64,000 bases of DNA. Source: Bryobacteraceae bacterium. GTDB taxonomy: Bacteria > Acidobacteriota > Terriglobia > Bryobacterales > Bryobacteraceae. A program made the position numbers and the translations under genes. The DNA lies in contig BPGD01000001.1 in NCBI GenBank assembly GCA_026002855.1, positions 1,825,972 through 1,889,971 of the forward strand, read 5' to 3'. Numbering within the stretch: the first letter of the stretch is position 1; each line of letters opens with the position of its first letter. A model generated the notes under the pieces. That model was not told the DNA's origin. It saw only the letters and a program-made list of their open reading frames with translations, and did no database searches. Below, in pieces: positions 19,449 to 30,420 of this stretch.

Positions 19449-19934
19449 TCAGTTCTCCGGCTTGCGGAAGATCGCGATCGCCTCGATCTCCACGAGCAGC
19501 TCCGGGCGGCAGAGAATGGCCTGGATGCCGGTGGAAGCCGGCAGCGGATCGAGGCCCTGCTCCTGATAGAAGCGCGTCCGCTCCTCGTTAAACGCCTCGT
19601 AGTCGCGCTCGATGTCGCGCAGGTAGCAGGTGGTGCGGACGACGTCCTTCCAGGTGGCGCCTTCGCTCGCCAGCAGTCCGGTGATGTTGTGGAAGGTGCG
19701 CCGCACCTGGGCGCGAAAGTCGCCGATGTGCACGGACCGGCCGTGTTCGTCAATGGAGGCCGTGCCGCTGATCAACAGCACGACGATGTTGCCAAACTCC
19801 AGCCGGATGCCGCGCGAGAACGAGCTGGGCTTCGCATAGCAGTAGGCCTCATTGAGGACCTGCGGGTTGGAAATGGCTTTCTTCTCAATGGAGACAGCCT
19901 TCGCGGCCTCGGCCAGAGCTTCTTCGAGCCTCAT
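19449..19934 (-). CDS. RidA (YjgF/YER057c/UK114) family protein, divergent
   Basis: A 161-residue member of the Rid superfamily, longer than the usual 125-130. Recognisable parts are VVLLISGTASIDEHG, DFRAQVRRTFHNITGLLASEGATWKDVVRTTCYLRDIE and VEIEAIAIFRKPE. Where archetypal RidA has the catalytic Arg in a P-A-R-S sequence, this protein reads PASTGIQA, so the enamine/imine deaminase activity is doubtful. ATG 19934 has AGGAGG ten bases before it and overlaps the upstream stop (ATGA). It is the last gene of the seven-gene cluster. Confidence 0.85.
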   Translation of the reverse strand: MRLEEALAEAAKAVSIEKKAISNPQVLNEAYCYAKPSSFSRGIRLEFGNIVVLLISGTASIDEHGRSVHIGDFRAQVRRTFHNITGLLASEGATWKDVVRTTCYLRDIERDYEAFNEERTRFYQEQGLDPLPASTGIQAILCRPELLVEIEAIAIFRKPEN

Positions 19935-20944
19935 GATGGAGAAACCTCCTGCAAAAGGACGGATGAAATGGGACGCCTGCCGTTGGGAGCGAAGCGGCTG
20001 GCGAGCCGTTCCCGCACGGCGGGCCGGTTCGGCCCGGCTGCCTGTATGCACTCTAGCAACAGGGCCGTGGATTCATAGGCGAGCTGGAAAAACACATCGC
20101 CTGGACACTGAAAGCGGGCTTCCGCCTGGCGGAGCAGCCCTATATCAGGCACAGCCAGGGCCGGCGCCAACACCGGCCGGCGCAGCCTGCCGCGGCAGGC
20201 GCGCGACCAAGCGGACGGCCCGCAATAAACTTCAGCCGACTCGGGGATCAGGGACACGACGTCGCATAGCGTCGCTGGTGGCGCCAGCACTACGACCGGC
20301 GAGTGCGACGGCTCGGGCGGGCGGTTGGGCGGCTGGAAGTCATGCCGCTCCGCCGGCTGGGCCATCCGGCTGAGGACGCGCGCCAGCTGGCGCGAGCCGT
20401 GATCGGTGGCTGCCAGCAGCGTGTACGGCCGGCGTCTGAGCCCCTCCGCGAGGGCCCGCGCCAGCAACGAGTCCCCTGGCGCCCAGGAGAAAATCCACGG
20501 GACGAAGGCGGCGTTGGCCGTTTCGTCCGTAGAGACCGGGTCGACGATGGGGAACAGCATCTTGGCGGCCACCTGTTCGGCGAGGTGCGTGGTGGCGCTG
20601 TCGATGCCGCCCACCAGCGCCACAATGCGGTCCTCCAGGGCAAGCCGGGCCACCGCCGATGCGCCGGCCCGCCAGGGATCGTCCGACCATCGGCAAAACA
20701 GCCGGTAGGGCTTGTCTCCCTTGCCGAGCCGTGCATTGGCGTGTTCTACGGCCAGAGCCACGCCCATATACACGGTTCCGCCCGCAGCATGGCCCGGGTC
20801 GTCCGGACCAAACAGACCCACCGGGAGGTAGGGCAGGTCTTCGGCCCCTTTCGGCGGCAACGGTGCCGGCTCGGCAGGCACGCCGCGCCGGTCGAGATAG
20901 GGCACGGCCGCCTGCACCGCCAGGAAATGCCGCCGCGTGATCAT
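19931..20944 (-). CDS. Orphan ABC-type ligand-binding protein, second of two (type I periplasmic-binding fold)
   Basis: A 337-residue protein. It begins MITRRHFLAVQAAVPYLDRRG, a twin-arginine-like signal. The body fits the leucine/amide-binding-protein fold: LPVGLFGPDD, TVYMGVALAVEHANARLGKGDKPYRL, IVALVGGIDSATTHLAEQVAAKMLFPIVDPVSTDETAN (about residues 103-140) and PDIGLLRQAEARFQCPGDVFFQLAYESTALLLECI. No permease or ATPase is nearby. It is shorter and more divergent than its neighbour. One base separates it from the upstream binding-protein gene, and its stop overlaps ridA. Confidence 0.8.
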   Translation of the reverse strand: MITRRHFLAVQAAVPYLDRRGVPAEPAPLPPKGAEDLPYLPVGLFGPDDPGHAAGGTVYMGVALAVEHANARLGKGDKPYRLFCRWSDDPWRAGASAVARLALEDRIVALVGGIDSATTHLAEQVAAKMLFPIVDPVSTDETANAAFVPWIFSWAPGDSLLARALAEGLRRRPYTLLAATDHGSRQLARVLSRMAQPAERHDFQPPNRPPEPSHSPVVVLAPPATLCDVVSLIPESAEVYCGPSAWSRACRGRLRRPVLAPALAVPDIGLLRQAEARFQCPGDVFFQLAYESTALLLECIQAAGPNRPAVRERLASRFAPNGRRPISSVLLQEVSPS

Positions 20945-20945
20945 T

Positions 20946-22421
20946 TCACCTGGTCTCCGCCGGGTTCATCAGGCCGCGGGCGGTGCGCTCGCGCGGCGGG
21001 ATGTAGCCGCGGGGAATCTGCAAATCCTCGCGGGAGTAATAGCGCCAGCGGCCGCCTTCAAACTTTGCCAGGTAGACTTCGCCGGCGTCGTCGAGAACGG
21101 CCGAGAATGGAATGTCGCCGGTCACGCCGGGCCAGGGCTTCACGCGTGTGGCAAGAATGTCGCGGATCCGCGCGCGGTTCAGCCCCGCCACCTGGATGGC
21201 CCAGATCAGCATGTTCATGCCGTCATAGGCGTGAGCGGCGTAGGTGTCGGGCTCGTCATTGAAGCGCTTGCGGAATCTCTCGCGAAACTCGGCCAGGCGC
21301 GGGTTGTTGGAGTCGGGATTCCAGGGGTAGCCGGCGATCACGCCATCCGCATACGGGCCGGCCAGTTTCAGGAACTCTTTCGAAACGGCGCGGTCCGAGG
21401 TCAGGAAGGGCTGCGTCATGCCGCGCTCGCGGAGCTGCCGCAAAATGATGGCCGCCTCGCGGGCGTCGCCCCAGTGGACGATGACATCGGGCCTGACCTC
21501 GGCGATGCGGTCGATCTGAAGGGAATAGTCGTCTTTGCCGAGCTGGTAGGCCATCTCGATCACCACCGGGCGGCCCAGCCGGCGGGCCGAGTCCTTGATC
21601 TCGCGCACGCCGAAGCGCCCGTAACGGTTCGATGAGCGGATGATGGCGATCCTCTTGTAGTCCATCTTGCGGATCATGTAGTCGACCATCAGATAGCCCA
21701 TCTGGCGGTCATCGCCGATGCAGCGCATCGTCCACGGAATGTTGGTCTCAATGTAGGTGGGGTCGGTGTCGCCGGTATTCATGACGACGACTTCCGCCTT
21801 GAGGGCGACGCGGATGGCGATGTGCGAATTGGCCGAGTCGATCGTTCCAAGGATCGCCCAGACGTGGTCTTTGTAGGCGAAGTTGACGATCTCGTTGCCG
21901 CTCGAACCCCACAGGCCGTTGTCATTGGTCACTACGAGCTCGAACGGGATTTTCCGTCGCAGGTAGCCGCCCCGGGCGTTGGCCTCTTCGATGGCGAGCC
22001 GCGCCCCCTGGAGCATCTTGATGCCCATCGACTCCTCATGGCTCGCGCCTCCGGTGGCGACACTGACGGTGCTCATGATCGGCCCGATAAAGCCGATCTT
22101 GACCGTCCTGACGTCTTCCGGTTCCGGGATGGCGCGCCCGGGGCCCCAGTACTGCATCTGTTCGAGGAAGTGTTCTTTGTAGGGCTTGATCTTGCCGTAG
22201 GGCTCATAGTCGACGGGCGTCTTCGCGTAAGCCGTGTCGCGCCTGAGCTGTAGGTCCGGGACCTCGTACGGCCCAACCGCCAGGATCCGCTTGAGAACCT
22301 CCAGCGTATGCTCGTCCACTTCGACGCCCGGCGGCACCAGCGGTTCATTGGCCGGCGCCTTTTTCGGCGTGTCGGCGGCGAACATCACGGAAATGGCAAG
22401 CAGAGGAAGCAGCCGCTTCAT
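20946..22421 (-). CDS. ABC-type ligand-binding protein (branched-chain amino acid/amide-binding type), first of two
   Basis: A 491-residue exported protein: signal MKRLLPLLAISVMFAADTP, an extra N-terminal region of about 85 residues (VPPGVEVDEHTLEVLKRILAVG), then a Peripla_BP_6-type domain (VKIGFIGPIMSTVSVATGGAS, MLQGARLAIEEANARGGYLRRKIPFELVVTNDNG, VWAILGTIDSANSHIAIRVALKAEVVVMNTGDTDPT, RIAIIRSSNRYGRFG, DVIVHWGDAREAAIILRQLRERG). The frame is open upstream, but ATG 22421 forms an ATGA overlap with the preceding gene. There are no transporter membrane genes, so a sensing or carrier role is as likely as uptake. Confidence 0.88.
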   Translation of the reverse strand: MKRLLPLLAISVMFAADTPKKAPANEPLVPPGVEVDEHTLEVLKRILAVGPYEVPDLQLRRDTAYAKTPVDYEPYGKIKPYKEHFLEQMQYWGPGRAIPEPEDVRTVKIGFIGPIMSTVSVATGGASHEESMGIKMLQGARLAIEEANARGGYLRRKIPFELVVTNDNGLWGSSGNEIVNFAYKDHVWAILGTIDSANSHIAIRVALKAEVVVMNTGDTDPTYIETNIPWTMRCIGDDRQMGYLMVDYMIRKMDYKRIAIIRSSNRYGRFGVREIKDSARRLGRPVVIEMAYQLGKDDYSLQIDRIAEVRPDVIVHWGDAREAAIILRQLRERGMTQPFLTSDRAVSKEFLKLAGPYADGVIAGYPWNPDSNNPRLAEFRERFRKRFNDEPDTYAAHAYDGMNMLIWAIQVAGLNRARIRDILATRVKPWPGVTGDIPFSAVLDDAGEVYLAKFEGGRWRYYSREDLQIPRGYIPPRERTARGLMNPAETR

Positions 22422-23572
22422 TTCACGTCCCTCCTGGTGGCGGCCAGCATCCGGGGCCGCTCGCGCAGCCCGGAATAATAGCCTTCGCCGATGCCCCACG
22501 CCAGGCCCTTGGCGGTGCCGACGAAGACGTCCCTGTCGTCGACGTCCACCGCGATGATGAAGTTGTGGGGCAGGTTGAGGCCCATTTCGACGGTTTCGAG
22601 CACCGTCTTGTCCCGCATCACCACCGCCTTGCCGGAGTCCGACTTCGGATCCCGCGTGTAGGCCACCCACGTATTGGTCTCGGCGTCCATGATCGCGCCC
22701 AGGCCTTTGTCGGAGGCAAACCAGGCCTCGCGCCCGCTGCGCGCGCGCAGGTTGTTGTTGAAGTCCGAGGGCAGGCCGGAGTCCATGTTGTAATACCCGC
22801 GCCAGTTGCGGCCGTCATAGCGGCAGGCGCCAAAATACGAGGACACCCACAGCACGCCGTCCACGTAGTTGGCCCCGGTGGTGATGACGTGAATGATGCC
22901 ATCGTCGCGGTAGAGGTCGATCTCCATTTCGCCGTCGGGGTCGAGGTAGTCCTTCCAGCGGTTCTCCTTGACGTCGTACTCGAGAACCCCGGAGCCCCAC
23001 ACGGCCAGATGGACCTTGCCGTCGCGGTAATGCACGCCGTAGTTCCAGATCTCTTCCATCGGCGCGTTCTTCTCGGTGAAAATCGTCCACTCGCCGGTGA
23101 CGGTGTTGTAGCGCGACGCGCCCGCCGTCGTCGCCGCCCATACGTTGTCGTTCTCCACAGCGACTCCGTAGACCACGTCGTTCACCAGGCCGGAATTGAG
23201 CTGATGCCAGTGGTCGAAGCGGCCGCCGCTCAGCCGCGCCAGCCCGCCGCCGAACAGCGCCAGCCAGACGTCGCCCGTTTTCGGGTCAACGTCGATGCCA
23301 GTGACCGCGCGCCAGGGCAGGCCGTCCTTTTCGGTCCAGACCTTCACCACTTTGGCGGTTTTCTTGTCGATCAGCGCCAGTCCGTTCTCGGTGCCCACCC
23401 AGATCCGGTCCCCGTCGCTTTTCACGGCGAAGATGTGATCGTCCGGCAGGCCGTCCTTGACGGTGAACTGTTTCCACTTCGTGTAGACATACGGCAGCTT
23501 CTCAGCGCCCGGCTCGGCGGCCAGGGCGGAACCCAGGGTGATGAACAGCAGGCATGCGGCAAAGGGTTTCAT
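22418..23572 (-). CDS. Two-component-regulator-type beta-propeller protein, no kinase
   Basis: A 384-residue exported protein (MKPFAACLLFITLGSALAAEP signal). It has repeated Reg_prop units: TVKDGLPDDHIFAVKSDGDRIWVGTENGLALID, WTEKDGLPWRAVTGIDVDPKTGDVWLALFGGGLARL, NDVVYGVAVENDNVWAATTAGASRYN and DSGLPSDFNNNLRARSGREAWFASDKGLGAI. These propellers normally form the sensory part of hybrid histidine kinases; here no membrane helix or kinase follows, so it is a free periplasmic propeller. Both ends overlap neighbours by four bases (ATGA). Confidence 0.87.
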   Translation of the reverse strand: MKPFAACLLFITLGSALAAEPGAEKLPYVYTKWKQFTVKDGLPDDHIFAVKSDGDRIWVGTENGLALIDKKTAKVVKVWTEKDGLPWRAVTGIDVDPKTGDVWLALFGGGLARLSGGRFDHWHQLNSGLVNDVVYGVAVENDNVWAATTAGASRYNTVTGEWTIFTEKNAPMEEIWNYGVHYRDGKVHLAVWGSGVLEYDVKENRWKDYLDPDGEMEIDLYRDDGIIHVITTGANYVDGVLWVSSYFGACRYDGRNWRGYYNMDSGLPSDFNNNLRARSGREAWFASDKGLGAIMDAETNTWVAYTRDPKSDSGKAVVMRDKTVLETVEMGLNLPHNFIIAVDVDDRDVFVGTAKGLAWGIGEGYYSGLRERPRMLAATRRDVK

Positions 23573-26370
23573 AGCGTCTTCAGGAACTCGATCAGGTCGT
23601 TCAGTTGATCCTTGGTCATGTCGTTGGTCACCCCGTGTTTGTCGTACGGGTTGTAGACCGTCCAGATCTCCTCAAGAGTCTTCGCCATGCCGTTGTGCAG
23701 GTATGGCGCCGAGTCGTAAATGTTGTTCAGGTGCGGCACGTCGAACAGGCCGGTACGGTCGAGCGCCTGCCGCGTGCCGACGTCGAACCTGCGGCGCGAC
23801 GTGTAGTAGGGCGGCGGATGACAGAACACGCAGCGGCCCTCGGGCGGGATGAGCCGCCCGTCGTTGGTGTGCGTCCGCTCAAACAGTTCCTTGCCGCGCC
23901 GCTGTGCCGGCGTATAGCGCGTGCCCGGCGTGTGATAGCGGTTGGGCGGGCGGCGGATGGTCGTGATGTAGTAGTCCACCGCCGAGAGTTCTTCGGGAGT
24001 GAACGGCAGGTTGCGCGTGAAGAAGACCGACAGGCGCGCTCCACATTGCCGTTTCAGCGATGGATTCGTGCCCTCCCATTTGAACGGCGCCGTGTCGCCG
24101 ATGCCGCGCAGGGTGCGGTTGTCCACCGGCGAGACGCCGATGCCATCGGCTTCAATGTCATAGGTGATCCCGTCCACGTGCCCGTCAGGGTGGCAGGAGT
24201 GGCAGGAAAACTGATTCCGGAATGTGATCCGCGCATTGTGAAAGAGCCTCTCGCCCCAGCGCCGTTTGGTGATCTCGCGCGGCCCGTTCAGCGAGATCTT
24301 TCCCGCCGGCTCGAGCCGCACAAGGTCGATCACCGTGATCGAGTCGTCCAGGCAGTTGGCCACGTAGGCGCGGCGGCCGTCGGCGGAGATGGCGATCCCG
24401 CGTGGGCTGTCCGCGGTGGGGATCCTCTTCACCAGGAACTCGGAGGCCTTGCCGAGATGGTTCGGGAAGATGCGCCGGCGTTCTTCTTCCGTCGCGTTCT
24501 CCAGCAGCCGCGTGAGCCGGTGGAGATCCAGCACCGCCACCTGGTTCGTTCCCGAGCTGGTGACCAGCGCGTAACGGCCGTCCGGTGTGATCCTGACGTC
24601 CGTGGCGTCGGCGAAGCCCTGGCCCGGCAGATCCAGCAGGAGCTGATCGGCGCGGCCGTCCGGCCAGATGACAGCGATTCCGTTGGTGATGGTCCAGCCC
24701 TGCAACAGGCGCGTCATCGGCACCAGATGTTTGGTGCGGTTCATGGTGGCGAGGGCGAAGCGGCCGTCGCGCCGCCAGTCGATGCCCATCATCAGGTTTG
24801 TGCCCTCGATGGTCCAGCGATCGCGGACGCGCGCGGTGGCGGCGTCGATCACGGTGAGCTCGCTGGCCAGCGGCATGCGGAACCCGGTGAGGTTTGAATA
24901 CATGTTGGTGACCAGCACCGTCGTCCCGTCCGGCGAAGGCGCCAGGTCCCACGGGCCGCGGCCCGCGGCGAGCTTCTTTACAAAGGCGAGTGTGCGCGCG
25001 TCGAAGACGTGGATGTCTTCCGACGATGTGTTCAGCACCAGGACATGCCGGTCTCCCGGAGTGACCAGCACGCCGTGGGGCTCGTCGCCGGTGCGCAGCG
25101 TGTCCTCCACCCGGCGCGCGGTGGCATCAATTACGGAGAGTGAATCGTCCTCGCGGTTGGTGACGAAGGCGCGCCGCCCGTCGCTCGTGAAGGCAACGCC
25201 GGTGGGCGCCGAGCCGACCGGGATTTCGGCCGCGACCCGGCCGGAGCGCGTATCGACGATCGAGACCGCGTTGCCCTCTTCGAGCGTCACCCACAGTTCG
25301 CTGGTACCGGGCCGGAAGGCCAGCCGCAACGGGTTCTTGTAGACCGGCTCGGCGGCGCGTTGCGGCAGCCGGGTCGGATGCGCAATCTGCTTCCACGCTT
25401 CGGCGGCATTGAATGCCTTGCCGTGGGCGGGGTTGTGGCAGCGCATGCAGTCGGCCAGCGAGGCCGCGCGGAGGCCCGCCGCGCGGGCGGCCTGCGGGTC
25501 GCGCATGATGGCATCGGTCGCGTACTTGCGGCCCGCACCGTGGCAGGCCTCGCATCCTACGCCCTCATCCACGCGTCCGCCCGCGGAATGGCATCGCAGG
25601 CAGGCGTCGCTCTGCTGAGGGTCGCCGTCGACCTTCATTTCGCGGGCCAGCTCCAGGGCGCGCGGCGTGGCCAGCACCGCCCAGGCGCGGGCGTGCGGGC
25701 TGCGCCGCCAGACGTCGTATTGGTGGCCGTGGTCCGGCCCGTTGTGGCAGGCGCCGCAGGCCGCCGCCCCAATGACCTCCGGCGCGTTCGCCTCGCGCAG
25801 GGCGGCAATCTTCGACGGCTTCGGCAGCGGGTGCGCAATCCGCTTCCAGGCCTCCTCAATGTCCACGGTGGGATTCCTGAGCACGGCCACGTGCGAGCCC
25901 TTCTCCATGTGGCAGACCATGCAATCGTCCTTGGTGGGCATCTTCAGGCCCGCCATCATCGCCGCCTTGCGGTCGCGCATGATCGCCTCAGTGGAGTACT
26001 CGCTGCCGGGCCCGTGGCAGGCTTCGCATTGCAGGCCATCCTCGCGGTGGAAGGTCTCCGCGTCAATCTCGCGCTCGTCGGCCTTGTACGCGGTGGAGTG
26101 GCAGCCGAGGCAGGTCTGCGCCTTCCAGGGCTCCTCCCGCAGGCCGCTGATGCGCGCGATCTCCCAAGCCTCAGGCCGGGACAGGGCCGTATAAGCCTGC
26201 GCGTGCTTCGACAGCAGCCACTTGCTGTACTGGTGTCCCATGCCGGGGCCGTTGTGGCAGGAGGCGCACACACGCGAGCCCACATAAACGGGCTTGGCCG
26301 GCGCCCCGCGTGAAACGAATACAAGCGGCGCCAGCGCGGCTGCCGACAGAATCCATGCGACCCTTCTCAC
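23569..26370 (-). CDS. Ten-CxxCH cytochrome fused to a YVTN beta-propeller and a cytochrome-c-peroxidase-like domain
   Basis: A 933-residue exported protein starting with GTG at 26370 (GGAGGAAGG just upstream; GTGA overlap with the previous gene). Residues 1-25 are a signal peptide. Two cytochrome-c554-like tetraheme modules follow, with CxxCH at about 35, 87, 115, 150 and 205, 257, 273, 308; each set is CxSCH/CGACH, CLxCH, CEACH, CMxCH. A YVTN-type propeller (AVSIVDTRSGRVAAEIPVGSAPTGVAFTSDGRRAFVTN and repeats) covers about 330-690. The C-terminal part has CHSCHPDGH (723-727) and CVFCHPP (847-851), in a MauG/cytochrome-c-peroxidase-like arrangement. The architecture suggests periplasmic electron transfer to or from an oxidised substrate. 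Confidence 0.9.
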   Translation of the reverse strand: MRRVAWILSAAALAPLVFVSRGAPAKPVYVGSRVCASCHNGPGMGHQYSKWLLSKHAQAYTALSRPEAWEIARISGLREEPWKAQTCLGCHSTAYKADEREIDAETFHREDGLQCEACHGPGSEYSTEAIMRDRKAAMMAGLKMPTKDDCMVCHMEKGSHVAVLRNPTVDIEEAWKRIAHPLPKPSKIAALREANAPEVIGAAACGACHNGPDHGHQYDVWRRSPHARAWAVLATPRALELAREMKVDGDPQQSDACLRCHSAGGRVDEGVGCEACHGAGRKYATDAIMRDPQAARAAGLRAASLADCMRCHNPAHGKAFNAAEAWKQIAHPTRLPQRAAEPVYKNPLRLAFRPGTSELWVTLEEGNAVSIVDTRSGRVAAEIPVGSAPTGVAFTSDGRRAFVTNREDDSLSVIDATARRVEDTLRTGDEPHGVLVTPGDRHVLVLNTSSEDIHVFDARTLAFVKKLAAGRGPWDLAPSPDGTTVLVTNMYSNLTGFRMPLASELTVIDAATARVRDRWTIEGTNLMMGIDWRRDGRFALATMNRTKHLVPMTRLLQGWTITNGIAVIWPDGRADQLLLDLPGQGFADATDVRITPDGRYALVTSSGTNQVAVLDLHRLTRLLENATEEERRRIFPNHLGKASEFLVKRIPTADSPRGIAISADGRRAYVANCLDDSITVIDLVRLEPAGKISLNGPREITKRRWGERLFHNARITFRNQFSCHSCHPDGHVDGITYDIEADGIGVSPVDNRTLRGIGDTAPFKWEGTNPSLKRQCGARLSVFFTRNLPFTPEELSAVDYYITTIRRPPNRYHTPGTRYTPAQRRGKELFERTHTNDGRLIPPEGRCVFCHPPPYYTSRRRFDVGTRQALDRTGLFDVPHLNNIYDSAPYLHNGMAKTLEEIWTVYNPYDKHGVTNDMTKDQLNDLIEFLKTL

Positions 26371-28019
26371 TGCGCCTTCCTCCGCGCTTCCGCCTTGTGG
26401 CGGAGTGTCAACACCTGATTGGCCCGCACGCCGGAAAACTTCTCCACGACGCCGTCCGGCCAGCGGATCTCCAGGTCGCACACCGTCGCCCCGCCGAGCC
26501 CGAAATGGAGGCGCGGATCGCCCTGGCTGAGATAACCGCGGACCGGATTGATGTCTTCGATCATCCGCAGCCCGTTTGCCGTCACCGTCACCCGCGCGCC
26601 GATCGCCGTGCGCGAGCCGGAGGGGAAATCCAGCCGTGCGTCCACCATCAGCCACGGACGCGCATTGCCGCCTTCGTTTCGCAGCAGCACCGGCGCGTCG
26701 TTGAGGTTCACCACCAGCAGGTCGATGTCGCCGTCGTTGTCGATATCGGCCCACGCCGCGGCCCGGCCGACGCGCTTTGTCGCGAAGTACGGCCCCGCTT
26801 CGCGCGAAACATCTTCAAAGGTGCCATCGCGCCGGTTCCGGCACAGCGTGTCCTCCTGCACGAACTCATGGTGCGCGTGGCCGTGCACGGTGAACAGATC
26901 GAGCCAGCCGTCGTGGTCCCAGTCGAACATCACCGAGCCCCAGCCCGCGTACTGGCCGAGCATCGGCGCCAGTCCGGCGGCGTCATTCAGGTTCTCGTAA
27001 AAGCCCTTCTTCGGATTGAAAACGAACAGCGAGACGTAGTTCAGGTTGGGTACGAACAGGTCCAGCCAGCCATCGCGATTGACGTCGCCATAGAACGGGC
27101 CCATCGACGCCACGCCCTGACCATGCTCGCTGAAGGCGAGTTCGTATTCGAGGCCGCTTTCGGCGAACGTGCCGCCGCCCCTGTTGATAAAAAAGTAGTT
27201 CTCCATCGCGTCGTTGGAGGTGAACACGTCCATGCGGCCGTCGTTGTTGAAGTCCGCCGCGGTGACGCTCATCGCGCGTCCGCCCGGCTTCCACATGCCG
27301 GCTTCTTTGGTCACATCGGTGAAGGTGCCGTCGCCGTTGTTGCGGTAGAGGATGCTTGGCAGGCCCTGGTAACTGAGCGGGCCGGGATAGCCCTGCGCCG
27401 GGTAAAAGTCGCGGAACTTGCCATCGTCATAAAGCAGGTAGTTGGCGACGTAGACGTCCAGCCAGCCGTCGTTGTTGTAGTCGAACCAGACGGCGTGCAG
27501 CGACCAGCGCGAATCGTCGAGGCCGGATTGTTTCGAGACATCGGTGAACGTGCCGTTGCCGTTGTTGTGGTAAAGAATGTTCGGCCCGTAGTTGAGCACG
27601 TAGAGGTCGACGTGCCCGTCGTTGTCATAGTCGGCGGCCGAGCAGCCCGAGCCGTAAATGCCGCCGGCCACGCCCGCCTTCGCCGTCACGTCCTCGAAAC
27701 GCCCGTTGCCGAGGTTGTGGTAGAGCCGGTTGGAAAGCTTGCCGCGCAGGTCGCGGCCGTCGTTGTCGCTGACGCCCTTCGTCCAGACGCCGGTCACGAA
27801 GTAGATGTCCATCAACCCGTCGTTGTCGTAATCGAAGAAACAGGCCCCGGAGCCGGTGCCTTCGACGATGTTGTCGAGCTTGTGGTCGCCGATGCTGTGG
27901 CGGAACGTGATGCCCGCCTCGGCGGTGATGTCGGCAAACACCGGGTCCCGCGAAGGCGCCGAGGCGGCGCCGGCCGCAATTACGGCCGCCACTGCGGCCA
28001 TCGCCAACCCGACTCTCAT
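26367..28019 (-). CDS. CRTAC1-family protein (FG-GAP/VCBS propeller + ASPIC/UnbV)
   Basis: A 550-residue exported protein (MRVGLAMAAVAAVIAAGAASA signal). It begins FADITAEAGITFRHSIGDHK. At least seven FG-GAP/VCBS repeats follow, with calcium-binding DxDxDG loops (FFDYDNDGLMDIYF, AADYDNDGHVDLYVLNYG, WFDYNNDGWLDVYVANY, AADFNNDGRMDVF, MFDWDHDGWLDLF, WADIDNDGDIDLLVVN). The protein ends in an ASPIC/UnbV domain (TAIGARVTVTANG...RLHFGLGGATVCDLEIRWPDG). Overlaps both neighbours by four bases. Such proteins are abundant in Acidobacteria and Planctomycetes; the function is unknown and may be adhesive or enzymatic. Confidence 0.9.
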   Translation of the reverse strand: MRVGLAMAAVAAVIAAGAASAPSRDPVFADITAEAGITFRHSIGDHKLDNIVEGTGSGACFFDYDNDGLMDIYFVTGVWTKGVSDNDGRDLRGKLSNRLYHNLGNGRFEDVTAKAGVAGGIYGSGCSAADYDNDGHVDLYVLNYGPNILYHNNGNGTFTDVSKQSGLDDSRWSLHAVWFDYNNDGWLDVYVANYLLYDDGKFRDFYPAQGYPGPLSYQGLPSILYRNNGDGTFTDVTKEAGMWKPGGRAMSVTAADFNNDGRMDVFTSNDAMENYFFINRGGGTFAESGLEYELAFSEHGQGVASMGPFYGDVNRDGWLDLFVPNLNYVSLFVFNPKKGFYENLNDAAGLAPMLGQYAGWGSVMFDWDHDGWLDLFTVHGHAHHEFVQEDTLCRNRRDGTFEDVSREAGPYFATKRVGRAAAWADIDNDGDIDLLVVNLNDAPVLLRNEGGNARPWLMVDARLDFPSGSRTAIGARVTVTANGLRMIEDINPVRGYLSQGDPRLHFGLGGATVCDLEIRWPDGVVEKFSGVRANQVLTLRHKAEARRKAQ

Positions 28020-29350
28020 TGCGAACCTCCGTTGGAGATCACCACCGGCGCGCGCAGCTTCACCGGCCTGCGGACAATCGCCTTCGCCTCGCGGTTTTCC
28101 GGCGTCAGCTCCGGATCTTCGTGGCAGCCGATGCAGCCGCGGTTCTCCTTCGGCCGCGTGTACATCCAGGCCGAAGAGCGCACCACGCGGCCCGCCCCGT
28201 CCACGAGCTCCAGTTTCAGCGGCGTGTTGGGCGGCACTTCCAGATGGAAGCTGCCGTCGTCCTCGATCCGCAGGTCGCCGATCTTCTGCGGGTTGTCGGC
28301 GGGCGTCGTATAGACGCGCAACCGCCACGGCTGCCCCGGACGGATTGTCTGGGGCTGATCCGTGGTGAAAACGCTGAGGCAATAGAGCCGGCTCCAGCCG
28401 GCGTCCTCGATCACGACCGAGCCGCGCCCCGCCGGCTCCGGCCGCGCAAGCACCGGCCGCGCCTGCCGCGCGTCGGCCCCGGCCTTTACATAAACAGGAA
28501 CTTTTGTTTTCGTGCCCGGATGGAACCGGTAGATGCCCGCAGGGGTCTTCGCGTCCGGCTGCCAGCTCACGAGCAGGCGGCCGCCGGGCAGCCCGGCGGG
28601 TGTCGAAAAGATGCCGTCGGCCGGCCGAGTCAGCTCCTGGCGCGTGTGGAGCGGCCGCGCAAGATTCACGGCAGCCAGCACGCCGCCACCATCCACGAAG
28701 ACGAGCCGGCCGTCCAGGGTGACCGCAGGCTCGCGGAGCTGCTCGCCGGACAGGTAGAGTGAATAGTCCGTGCCGTCCAGGTTCACCGCCATCAGTTGAG
28801 ACCGCGCGCCCTGGCGGGACGCGAAGACCATCATCCCGTCCGGCAGCATCGTCGCGTCGGACTCCTGCCAGGGGGTGAACGTAATGCGCTGCCGGAGGGT
28901 GCCGTCGAACTTCACCGTGTACAGGGCGCCGCCACAGAAGAACGCCGCCTGCGGCCACGGGTCGGGGATGTCGAGGCTGAAGATCTGCGACTGATAGGCG
29001 GGCCGGCGGCAGTCGCAGGCCATCTTTGTGAGCTGCTTCACCGCGCCGGTTGAGAGAGTCATCTCATAAATCTGCCAGGCGTCGGCGGCCGTCTTCTTTC
29101 CGGCGAAGAGGATGCGCTTCGCGTCCCAGCTCACATCCGGATCGGCGGCGGCATGGAAGCCCCGGCTGAGCACGCGGGCCGTGCCGCCGGGCTCAAGCAG
29201 CACGAGGCGCGGTTGCCCGCCCGCGGGCGTCTCCGTGAACACGATCGGGTAGCGGCCCGCCGCCTGCGGCGCCTGCGCTCCGGCTGCGGGAAGAGCCAGG
29301 GCGCCCGTGAAGAGAATACCAGACCAGAAAATCCTCTTTAAGACCCGCAC
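28016..29350 (-). CDS. Single-heme TolB/PD40-type propeller protein (HzsA-like architecture)
   Basis: A 444-residue exported protein. GTG at 29350 gives a clean signal (RVLKRIFWSGILFTGALALPAAGA); a TTG at 29386 is in frame but would precede the signal by 12 residues. Repeated WD40-like/TolB-type strands (PDVSWDAKRILFAGKK, DAWQIYEMTLSTGAVKQLT, DATMLPDGMMVFASRQG) form a propeller. A C-terminal beta domain carries one heme site, GCIGCHEDPELTPENR (C406-H410). This combination resembles the propeller part of hydrazine-synthase alpha-like proteins, which are common outside anammox bacteria, and does not imply hydrazine synthesis. It is the first gene of the coupled cluster. Confidence 0.82.
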   Translation of the reverse strand: MRVLKRIFWSGILFTGALALPAAGAQAPQAAGRYPIVFTETPAGGQPRLVLLEPGGTARVLSRGFHAAADPDVSWDAKRILFAGKKTAADAWQIYEMTLSTGAVKQLTKMACDCRRPAYQSQIFSLDIPDPWPQAAFFCGGALYTVKFDGTLRQRITFTPWQESDATMLPDGMMVFASRQGARSQLMAVNLDGTDYSLYLSGEQLREPAVTLDGRLVFVDGGGVLAAVNLARPLHTRQELTRPADGIFSTPAGLPGGRLLVSWQPDAKTPAGIYRFHPGTKTKVPVYVKAGADARQARPVLARPEPAGRGSVVIEDAGWSRLYCLSVFTTDQPQTIRPGQPWRLRVYTTPADNPQKIGDLRIEDDGSFHLEVPPNTPLKLELVDGAGRVVRSSAWMYTRPKENRGCIGCHEDPELTPENREAKAIVRRPVKLRAPVVISNGGSQ

Positions 29351-29436
29351 TGAAGTCAGTCTAAGGCAAGCCCCTGGCAGTGCCAATTGGCCCGGGATAT
29401 TACTTGGATCGTATTAGAAAAAACTGCGCAGTCGCC

Positions 29437-30420
29437 TCAGTACGCGCCGCATTCCATCAGGCAGCGGATCTCCTGCGGATCCTGCGTCTTGCCAAGGATC
29501 AGCATCAGCCGGATGCGTGCCTTGGCGGCGTTGAGCGTTCCGGCGAAGAGCACGCCCCGCTGCCGCAGGTCATGGCCGCTGCCTTCATAGCCGTAGATAT
29601 CCAGCACCCGCCCGTGGGCGCAGCGGGTGGCGATGACCACCGGGATGCCCGCGTCGATGGCGCGCTGGATGGCGGGCACCGCCTGCGGCGTTACGTTGCC
29701 GCGTCCGGTTCCTTCGACGACGATGCCGCGGGCGCCGCTCTCGCGGGCGAAGTCCATGAAGCGGCCGTCTGCGCCGGCGCACATCGTCACCAGGTCGACG
29801 CGCGGCTCCAGCCGCGGCGCGTCGATTACGACGCGATCCACCAGCCGTCGGCCGAAGATCACGCGGTCGACGTCGACCAGGCCCAGCGGGCCGAAAACCG
29901 GACTCTGGAACGTCTCCAGTTGCTGGGTGTCCGTCTTGGTGGCTTCGCTTGCCGGATGGATCATCTGGTTGAGCACCACGAAAACGCCCTGCCCTCGCGC
30001 CTGCGGACTCAGCACGGTCCGAATGGCGGCTGAAAGATTGGCCGGCCCGTCAAAACCCGGCTCGCTCACCGTGCGCATCGCCCCGACCACGGCCACCGGT
30101 TTTTCAGAAGTGTGCCGCAGGTCGAGCAGATAGGCCGTTTCCTCGAGCGTGTCCGTGCCGTGGGTCACCACAGCGCCTACGATCTCCTCGCGTTGAAGCT
30201 CGCGGCGCAGGATCTCGCTCACCTCCCACATCCGCTCCAGGGTCATGTGCGGGCCCGGGTAGCGGCCGTATTCCAGGACCTCCAGTTCGGCGAGCCGCAG
30301 GAGGGCAGGGTCGTGCTCCAGCAACTCCCGGGCGCCCAGCGCGGGAACGGCGGCTCCGACGACCGGGTCGTAGCGCATCCCGATGGTCCCGCCGGTGAAG
30401 AGAACAAGGACGCGCGGCAT
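29437..30420 (-). CDS. L-asparaginase (type I/II asparaginase fold)
   Basis: A 327-residue enzyme hydrolysing asparagine to aspartate and ammonia. It shows the first threonine nucleophile in VLFTGGTIGM (about residues 7-16), the second in VVTHGTDTLEETAYLL (about 85-100), and conserved VGAMR and GLVVEGTGRGNV-type (GIVVEGTGRGNV) segments. No signal peptide, so it is probably cytoplasmic. It lies 86 bases upstream of the cytochrome cluster on the same strand and could feed into that transcript, although the gap suggests an independent unit. Confidence 0.9.
   Translation of the reverse strand: MPRVLVLFTGGTIGMRYDPVVGAAVPALGARELLEHDPALLRLAELEVLEYGRYPGPHMTLERMWEVSEILRRELQREEIVGAVVTHGTDTLEETAYLLDLRHTSEKPVAVVGAMRTVSEPGFDGPANLSAAIRTVLSPQARGQGVFVVLNQMIHPASEATKTDTQQLETFQSPVFGPLGLVDVDRVIFGRRLVDRVVIDAPRLEPRVDLVTMCAGADGRFMDFARESGARGIVVEGTGRGNVTPQAVPAIQRAIDAGIPVVIATRCAHGRVLDIYGYEGSGHDLRQRGVLFAGTLNAAKARIRLMLILGKTQDPQEIRCLMECGAY

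Follow-up and report, generated by a model that had tools for sequence, protein, structure and literature searches.

A hydrazine synthase-related gene cluster of Acidobacteriota, its distribution and its possible link to chorismate metabolism

The gene array and its subunits

The window, i.e. the whole stretch of DNA analysed here, comprises 64,000 nucleotides (positions 1,825,972 to 1,889,971 of the forward strand of contig BPGD01000001.1) of the genome of a Bryobacteraceae bacterium (GCA_026002855.1), which consists of a single contig of 4,437,915 bases. Translation of the window bore out an earlier note, made from the sequence alone, in that seven minus-strand genes follow one another between positions 19449 and 29350; the first and the third of them almost certainly encode a protein pair of the hydrazine synthase (HZS) family. 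These genes and the flanking asparaginase gene are listed below.

28016..29350, minus strand: gene 1, HZS alpha-like protein (444 aa) with a PD40/TolB-type propeller and an HZS_alpha middle domain; one CxxCH
26367..28019, minus strand: gene 2, CRTAC1-type protein (Pfam FG-GAP_3, 2.1e-59; UnbV_ASPIC, 1.7e-22); no CxxCH
23569..26370, minus strand: gene 3, HZS beta-gamma-like fusion (933 aa); ten CxxCH
22418..23572, minus strand: gene 4, free regulator-type propeller (Pfam Reg_prop, 9.3e-6); no CxxCH
20946..22421, minus strand: gene 5, type I substrate-binding protein BP1 (Pfam Peripla_BP_6, 9.3e-44); no CxxCH
19931..20944, minus strand: gene 6, divergent type I substrate-binding protein BP2 (Peripla_BP_6, 2.8e-11); no CxxCH
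19449..19934, minus strand: gene 7, single-domain Rid protein (161 aa; PF01042, 6.7e-19); no CxxCH
29437..30420, minus strand: flanking L-asparaginase (Pfam Asparaginase, 2.2e-52); no export signal

Gene 1 most likely starts at the GTG at 29350, the longest frame opening at a TTG at 29386. The junctions are as the earlier note had described them: all five four-base start/stop overlaps are present (28016-28019, 26367-26370, 23569-23572, 22418-22421 and 19931-19934), and the sixth junction is a one-base gap between 20946 and 20944. Export signals had been claimed for at least six of the products; by eye, six of the seven N-termini (genes 1-6) resemble such signals, that of gene 6 being twin-arginine-like (TRRHFL), and gene 7 has none. 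Like the seven genes, the asparaginase gene is on the minus strand; 86 bases separate it from gene 1, upstream of which it is kept within the genus.

The product of gene 1 matches the NCBIfam model of HZS alpha with 76.4 bits (cut-off 800) and, according to its sequence and to a structure model, has the alpha fold of HZS, i.e. a propeller and the middle domain that carries heme alpha-I. It was aligned with 29 of 43 alpha-like proteins (alignment A2; L142 and L188 are among those excluded), the residue numbers and roles of HZS being those given in the main texts of PMC12758564 and PMC12607021. In this alignment, (i) the CxxCH motif is kept in 30/30 proteins, (ii) the Ser590/Tyr591 site is a two-residue gap in all 30 rows, so that the proximal Tyr591 of heme alpha-I appears to be absent, and (iii) the column of Cys303, a zinc ligand of HZS alpha (A2 column 285), holds a Cys within an RCDHG-type motif in 25 of the 30, an equivalent being absent from the window protein and from four other type A rows. 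The main text of PMC12758564 reports no homologue with Cys303, and some anammox bacteria without it; the 25 cysteines of A2 contradict the former statement. The C-terminal domain of heme alpha-II is absent, the window protein ending soon after its only CxxCH. Two of the proteins left out of A2 are longer (776 and 785 aa, three CxxCH) and are encoded together with beta-gamma proteins of 602-610 aa, divergently from the Rid gene (L142:2214-6324 and L188:89-4233); no binding protein was found within these two loci.

Gene 3 had been described as a decaheme cytochrome/propeller fusion. The ten CxxCH motifs and the propeller are indeed there, and the protein is more exactly a beta-gamma subunit with a CCP/MauG-like di-heme end, composed of eight c554-type hemes (residues ~30-320), a YVTN propeller (~344-690) and the di-heme end (~700-933). 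It matches the beta-gamma model NF052342 with an E-value of 9.4e-59 (199.2 bits, cut-off 1250), and the beta-gamma profile matches the chains of the HZS structure (5c2v_B, 1.6e-66; 5c2v_C, 1.8e-35). In alignment A3, composed of the window protein and one protein each from 28 of 51 beta-gamma loci, both gamma CxxCH motifs and the third thioether cysteine (gamma-Cys165) are kept in 29/29 proteins, and gamma-His144 is replaced in all 29 by a Trp of the CCP/MauG-like kind. A segment of the beta part (PKN..P......G in HzsB) is among the best conserved (K in 28, N in 27, P in 29 and G in 29 of the 29) and may correspond to the loop reported to reach the HZS tunnel. The window type has ten CxxCH, and other complete types have six, three or mostly two, so the extra hemes are optional. 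No close paralogue of the beta-gamma part exists in the window genome, the next match scoring 53 bits, and a search of this genome for HAO/HDH-type partners with one Pfam model (PF13447) matched gene 3 alone. The earlier view that no system of this composition had been described does not hold, genes 1 and 3 being homologues of HZS alpha and beta-gamma and comparable clusters having appeared in print (main text of PMC12758564).

Among the companion proteins, gene 2 is one of ten full-length CRTAC1-type genes of the window genome (nine paralogues). BP1, whose closest solved relatives are proteins named as amino-acid binding, was aligned with 76 of 88 BP1-type frames (complete and at least 39% identical): H200 and R204 are kept in 77/77 sequences and R344 in 76/77. 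One further position is that which we take to hold the acid contacting the ligand's ammonium group in amino-acid binding proteins; it is an Asp in only 21/77 sequences, and the adjacent position is an Arg in 76/77. Because His200, Arg204 and Arg344 are kept while the ammonium-binding acid varies, the alignment hints at an anion rather than an amino acid as ligand, and an amino-acid ligand is weakly disfavoured.

Distribution, the Rid protein and linked DAHP synthase genes

The same neighbours were sought across Acidobacteriota with BP1, PF18582 and Rid as baits. BP1 homologues occur in 31 of 61 relatives, and 17 of 20 places chosen from the BP1 matches hold cluster genes, the other three (L054-L056) holding none. 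Of 396 Acidobacteriota genomes, 47 contain PF18582 matches, at 59 places outside the window genome; among the 40 neighbourhoods of these that were examined, the cluster, or as much of it as is visible, is present in 20 (L087-L106) and lacking in 20 (L107-L126), L110, L124 and L125 showing weak alpha-like matches only. The proteins matched by PF18582 at L107-L126 have frames of 762-1413 aa (L110: 565 aa) without a surrounding cluster and possibly represent another branch of the HZS alpha family. From a contig scan with the Rid alignment, the best 80 of at least 501 confirmed relatives were kept, all of them titled as Acidobacteriota, and beta-gamma was present at 51, BP1 at 50 and alpha at 43 of these 80 loci. 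The pooled sets contain 86 loci with beta-gamma, or 78 non-redundant ones after merging at 97% identity (a level that the beta-gamma genes of L038 and L127, for instance, reach); the choice of baits (BP1 17 loci, PF18582 18, Rid 51) biases these counts, and contig ends lower them. These 78 loci include alpha in 68, CRTAC1 in 71, a Reg_prop homologue of gene 4 in 72, BP1 in 72 and Rid in 68 cases. Thirty-five of them were found without the Rid bait, and a Rid gene is present in 25, being double-domain in two (L093 and L102).

The cluster thus recurs in many families of Acidobacteriota, a finding that is new here, and its recurrence in other genera, families and classes is beyond chance. According to the record titles, the metagenomes that contain these loci were obtained from peat, bog, palsa, groundwater and reactors. 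Since genes 1-7 are conserved as neighbours, they probably form one functional unit; the claim that their coupling fixes the proportion of the products was over-read, because the coupling is not conserved, the Rid gene moves and one Paludibaculum locus lacks the six exported genes. Indeed, tight overlaps are kept only within the genus, to which genome G003 also belongs, and in some other Bryobacterales; elsewhere there are gaps of tens to hundreds of bases or another gene order. At the Paludibaculum locus (L128, in a metagenome-assembled genome), the porin, asparaginase and Rid genes succeed one another as in the window, with 80 bases from the asparaginase stop to the Rid start, and genes 1-6 are absent there. 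The window genes beyond Rid (alpha/beta hydrolase, DnaK) were not found in the L128 locus, the only part of that genome searched for them. Asparaginase and Rid can hence stay neighbours at a locus without the six exported genes.

Gene 7, taken earlier for a divergent RidA, does belong to the Rid family (PF01042) and is not a canonical RidA. In alignment A1, composed of the window protein and 18 Rids (excluding copies from the same genus, L045 as a near copy, and L093 and L102 as double-domain proteins), the Arg of canonical RidA (as in 1j7h) corresponds to Ser134 in 19/19 proteins. The replaced Arg is presumably the catalytic one of RidA imine deaminases (Arg105 in E. coli). In a tree of 48 rows, four Rids of the window's own genome and three solved Rids are split from a group made up of the subfamily and the chorismatase domains (99/96). 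A function as imine deaminase is disfavoured by the absent Arg and by this grouping. Furthermore, gene 7 matches the chorismatase model TIGR04444 (5.9e-8, 32.3 bits, cut-off 325), as do all 19 Rids of A1 (best 6.1e-13), and the 19-Rid profile matches FkbO with an E-value of 8.2e-9 in an alignment that includes the N-terminal part (15-147). C142 and E149, seven residues apart, are invariant in the 19 Rids; the same spacing separates Cys318 and Glu325 of the Nat-hyg5 chorismatase, the Glu being essential (Glu334 in Hyg5) according to the text of PMC7170507. A Glu of the E149 type is present in canonical Rids too and is therefore non-discriminating.

Of the two double-domain proteins, L093 (a 409-residue frame at the Rid position) has FkbO (residues 125-341) and 5ag3 as best solved relatives and chorismatase as best family, below the cut-off, and L102 scores best against the generic Rid family. 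Taken together, the alignments and the tree suggest that gene 7 lacks the catalytic Arg of the imine deaminases and groups with the chorismatases, which is new here. Across genera, Rid is the most conserved protein of the cluster (62-76% where alpha is at 29-40%). Members of the same subfamily also adjoin PSCyt2/PSD1 genes (DUF1549/1553) in L134, L158, L162, L163, L183 and L184 (recognised with Pfam on L162 and L183 and by similarity in the other four), in L162 at least also lying near DUF1501 and PPC-domain genes, and a 2OG-Fe(II) oxygenase in L156, L179, L194, L200 and L205 (Pfam on L156 and L200, similarity for the rest).

A search for recurrent extra neighbours revealed genes for 3-deoxy-D-arabino-heptulosonate 7-phosphate (DAHP) synthase, the entry enzyme to chorismate, either within the cluster or close to it at 36 of the 78 non-redundant loci, and at 11 of the 35 found without the Rid bait. 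In the control set of Rid loci without beta-gamma and BP1, it was present in 0/28 (Fisher p 1e-6, relatedness ignored). Two copies that were checked both score above the family cut-off. This linkage, which is new here, occurs in several positions: upstream of alpha (family f8, Acidobacteriaceae, and comparable loci), between Rid and BP1 (L050, L052, L191, L206), following the binding proteins (L100, L105), between two binding proteins (L102) and upstream of CRTAC1 (L091). The genome-search loci concerned span seven family labels (f6, f7, f8, f32, f34, f40 and f47). Genomes with a linked copy hold 3-5 PF00793 genes (11 genomes) and those without hold 3 (4 genomes, the window genome included), PF00793 also covering KDO8P synthase. 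On a tree of 60 DAHP synthase copies, one row of which is a 53-residue fragment and several branches of which are long, the in-cluster label needs five changes, at least three of them on strong branches. Outside the cluster, a DAHP synthase gene is followed by a double Rid in L271, and in L270:7650-11220 the genes for a Rid, a DAHP synthase and a PD40/TPR protein, the last having a single CANCH motif, are consecutive without HZS genes, the GTG of DAHP synthase overlapping the Rid stop and the ATG of the PD40/TPR gene overlapping the DAHP synthase stop. No link of HZS-like clusters to Rid or DAHP synthase was found in the part of the open-licence literature that was searched.

Proposed function and alternatives

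The family identity of the pair is near certain, and its chemistry is what we infer. The window pair is very probably not a hydrazine synthase, as it has neither alpha-Tyr591 nor gamma-His144 nor an alpha-II heme and as the sole PF13447 match is gene 3 itself; hydrazine synthesis and anammox are rejected on the active-site residues and on the missing HAO-type partner, and the enzyme probably performs another reaction. In the reading towards which we lean, by a modest degree, the cluster encodes an exported multiheme oxidoreductase of the HZS family with a small-molecule partner that, in many relatives, is chorismate-derived. The alpha-like and beta-gamma-like subunits would form one complex with their companions; the extra hemes would relay electrons to the gamma di-heme or away from it; the active gamma heme, with its third thioether Cys and with Trp in place of gamma-His144, would perform one half reaction and the alpha heme the other, the conserved beta loop lying between both hemes. 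The role of the binding proteins could be to keep a small anionic substrate close to this complex. In many relatives at least, gene linkage suggests that the small molecule derives from chorismate, with DAHP synthase and the chorismatase-like Rid as the cytoplasmic part of the system. Taken by itself, the chorismate-derived nature of the partner molecule is a tentative proposal. It is least sure in the window organism, where no DAHP synthase is linked and the precursor would for that reason come from the general shikimate pathway.

Several observations weigh against this reading. As regards the subunits, residues 410-418 of the alpha model, directly after the heme motif, have a predicted local distance difference test score (pLDDT) below 50, and the AlphaFold2 model of beta-gamma is poor (pLDDT 62.6), its propeller alone being confident. 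As regards Rid, (i) RutC and generic Rid fit gene 7 with higher scores than chorismatase does, and gene 7 lies below every NCBIfam cut-off, (ii) the 19-Rid profile fits ordinary solved Rids better than FkbO (best 6.5e-15), (iii) gene 7 has one domain of 161 aa and chorismatases are two-lobed with ~340 aa, (iv) the Rid tree carries long-branch warnings and mixes cluster and non-cluster Rids, (v) the subfamily is not cluster-specific, 28 of the 80 bait loci lacking both beta-gamma and BP1, and (vi) 10 of the 35 clusters found without the Rid bait show no Rid, some of them at contig ends. As regards DAHP synthase, none is linked in the 15 loci of the window cluster and its family f1; G332, which has a linked copy, holds 3 PF00793 genes, no more than unlinked genomes; two of four other copies viewed in context (L268, L269) have no Rid nearby; and the 23 commonest neighbour families include no further gene recognised as part of an aromatic pathway.

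Among the alternatives, the one that survives best, itself unlikely, is an electron conduit between the periplasm and an extracellular acceptor, or a peroxidase acting through the CCP/MauG-like di-heme, without a dedicated organic substrate. The eight extra c554-type hemes of the window type and the CCP/MauG-like Trp in 29/29 proteins would suit it; these extra hemes are, however, dispensable, the binding proteins and alpha remaining where beta-gamma has six, three or mostly two CxxCH. An enzyme of nitrogen chemistry, combining nitric oxide or hydroxylamine with an amine and supplied with ammonia by an asparaginase or amidase, is rather improbable. The kinship with HZS, the retained gamma-Cys165, the Cys at the alpha-Cys303 column in 25/30 proteins, the asparaginase that lies upstream of the array within the genus and an amidase gene close to 17 of the 78 loci speak for it, and against it stand the Ser590/Tyr591 gap in 30/30, the replacement of His144 by Trp in 29/29, the lack of a Cys303 equivalent in the window and of any PF13447 match other than gene 3, and an asparaginase that lacks an export signal and remains next to Rid at the locus without the six genes. 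Slightly less probable again is an extracellular oxidation of amino acids or amines, with amino-acid binding proteins and a RidA clearing imines: the names of BP1's nearest solved relatives and the Rid fold of gene 7 would agree with it, but the canonical RidA Arg is absent in 19/19, the ammonium-contact acid of BP1 is Asp in 21/77 only beside an Arg kept in 76/77, and a link to DAHP synthase would be unexpected. Finally, a pyrroloquinoline quinone-type alcohol catabolism locus that lost its dehydrogenase is hardly credible and is rejected on family scores: the binding protein, propeller and cytochrome composition fits and the gene 3 propeller matches TIGR03866 with 111.1 bits, but this score is under the 287.3-bit cut-off and under the HZS match, and, as the earlier note had stated, no quinoprotein dehydrogenase is present among the eight proteins scanned with Pfam and NCBIfam.

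Returning to the HZS-family oxidoreductase with a chorismate-derived partner, a wider version of it is also conceivable, if doubtful: widespread HZS-family heme enzymes of Acidobacteriota would work with a dedicated chorismate-derived molecule, either a substrate or a diffusible redox cofactor, made by the chorismatase-like Rid and a recruited DAHP synthase, and the same cytoplasmic pair would also serve another, exported type of one-heme propeller protein (PD40/TPR). HZS was long considered to be without homologues, and those found in 2025 have no assigned function in the main text of PMC12758564; a wider HZS family with alternative substrates was suggested in the text of PMC10732223. The recurrent linkage with DAHP synthase and with a chorismatase-like protein is a concrete, testable clue to the substrate class of these homologues and bears on the origin of the anammox enzyme. 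If the wider version were true, anammox HZS would have branched off, as a user of ammonia, from a family of aromatic-linked heme enzymes.

Comparison with known systems

Gene 7 shares with the chorismatases FkbO (4bps) and 5ag3, the latter presumably Hyg5, the Rid fold, the FSR/FAR, SGTAS-like and CRxxLLVEIE-like motifs and the Cys and Glu seven apart; unlike them, it is a single domain of 161 aa, lies far below the TIGR04444 cut-off and has a Glu common to canonical Rids. The database name of 5ag3 is putative pteridine-dependent dioxygenase. With canonical RidA, gene 7 has the PF01042 fold in common, the catalytic Arg being replaced by Ser in 19/19 proteins. The likeness to HZS of Kuenenia stuttgartiensis (5c2v) extends to the alpha fold, the sequence kinship of the three subunits, the gamma heme motifs and the third Cys. 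In contrast to 5c2v, the window pair lacks Tyr591, His144 and the alpha-II heme, its beta-gamma is fused and bears extra hemes, and PF13447 reveals no other HAO-type protein.

The closest described systems are the HZS homologue clusters of clades I-III, presented without a function in December 2025 (Hagglund et al. 2025, PMC12758564). According to the main text of that paper, the window agrees with (i) clades I and II in having alpha upstream of a fused beta-gamma with CRTAC1 between them, (ii) clade I, including Paludibaculum fermentans, in eight extra heme motifs arranged as two c554 domains, in the Tyr591/Ser590 gap, in a Trp for gamma-His144 and in the retained gamma-Cys165, (iii) clades II and III and O. 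terrae in having no alpha-II heme, and (iv) clade III in two binding proteins downstream. To these clusters the window adds the free propeller and the Rid protein, RidA having no occurrence in their main text. Beyond what that text describes, the present analysis adds the breadth of the cluster within Acidobacteriota, its linkage to DAHP synthase and, on alignment A2, the cysteines that 25 of 30 alpha-like proteins, none of them of the window's type A, have at the Cys303 column.

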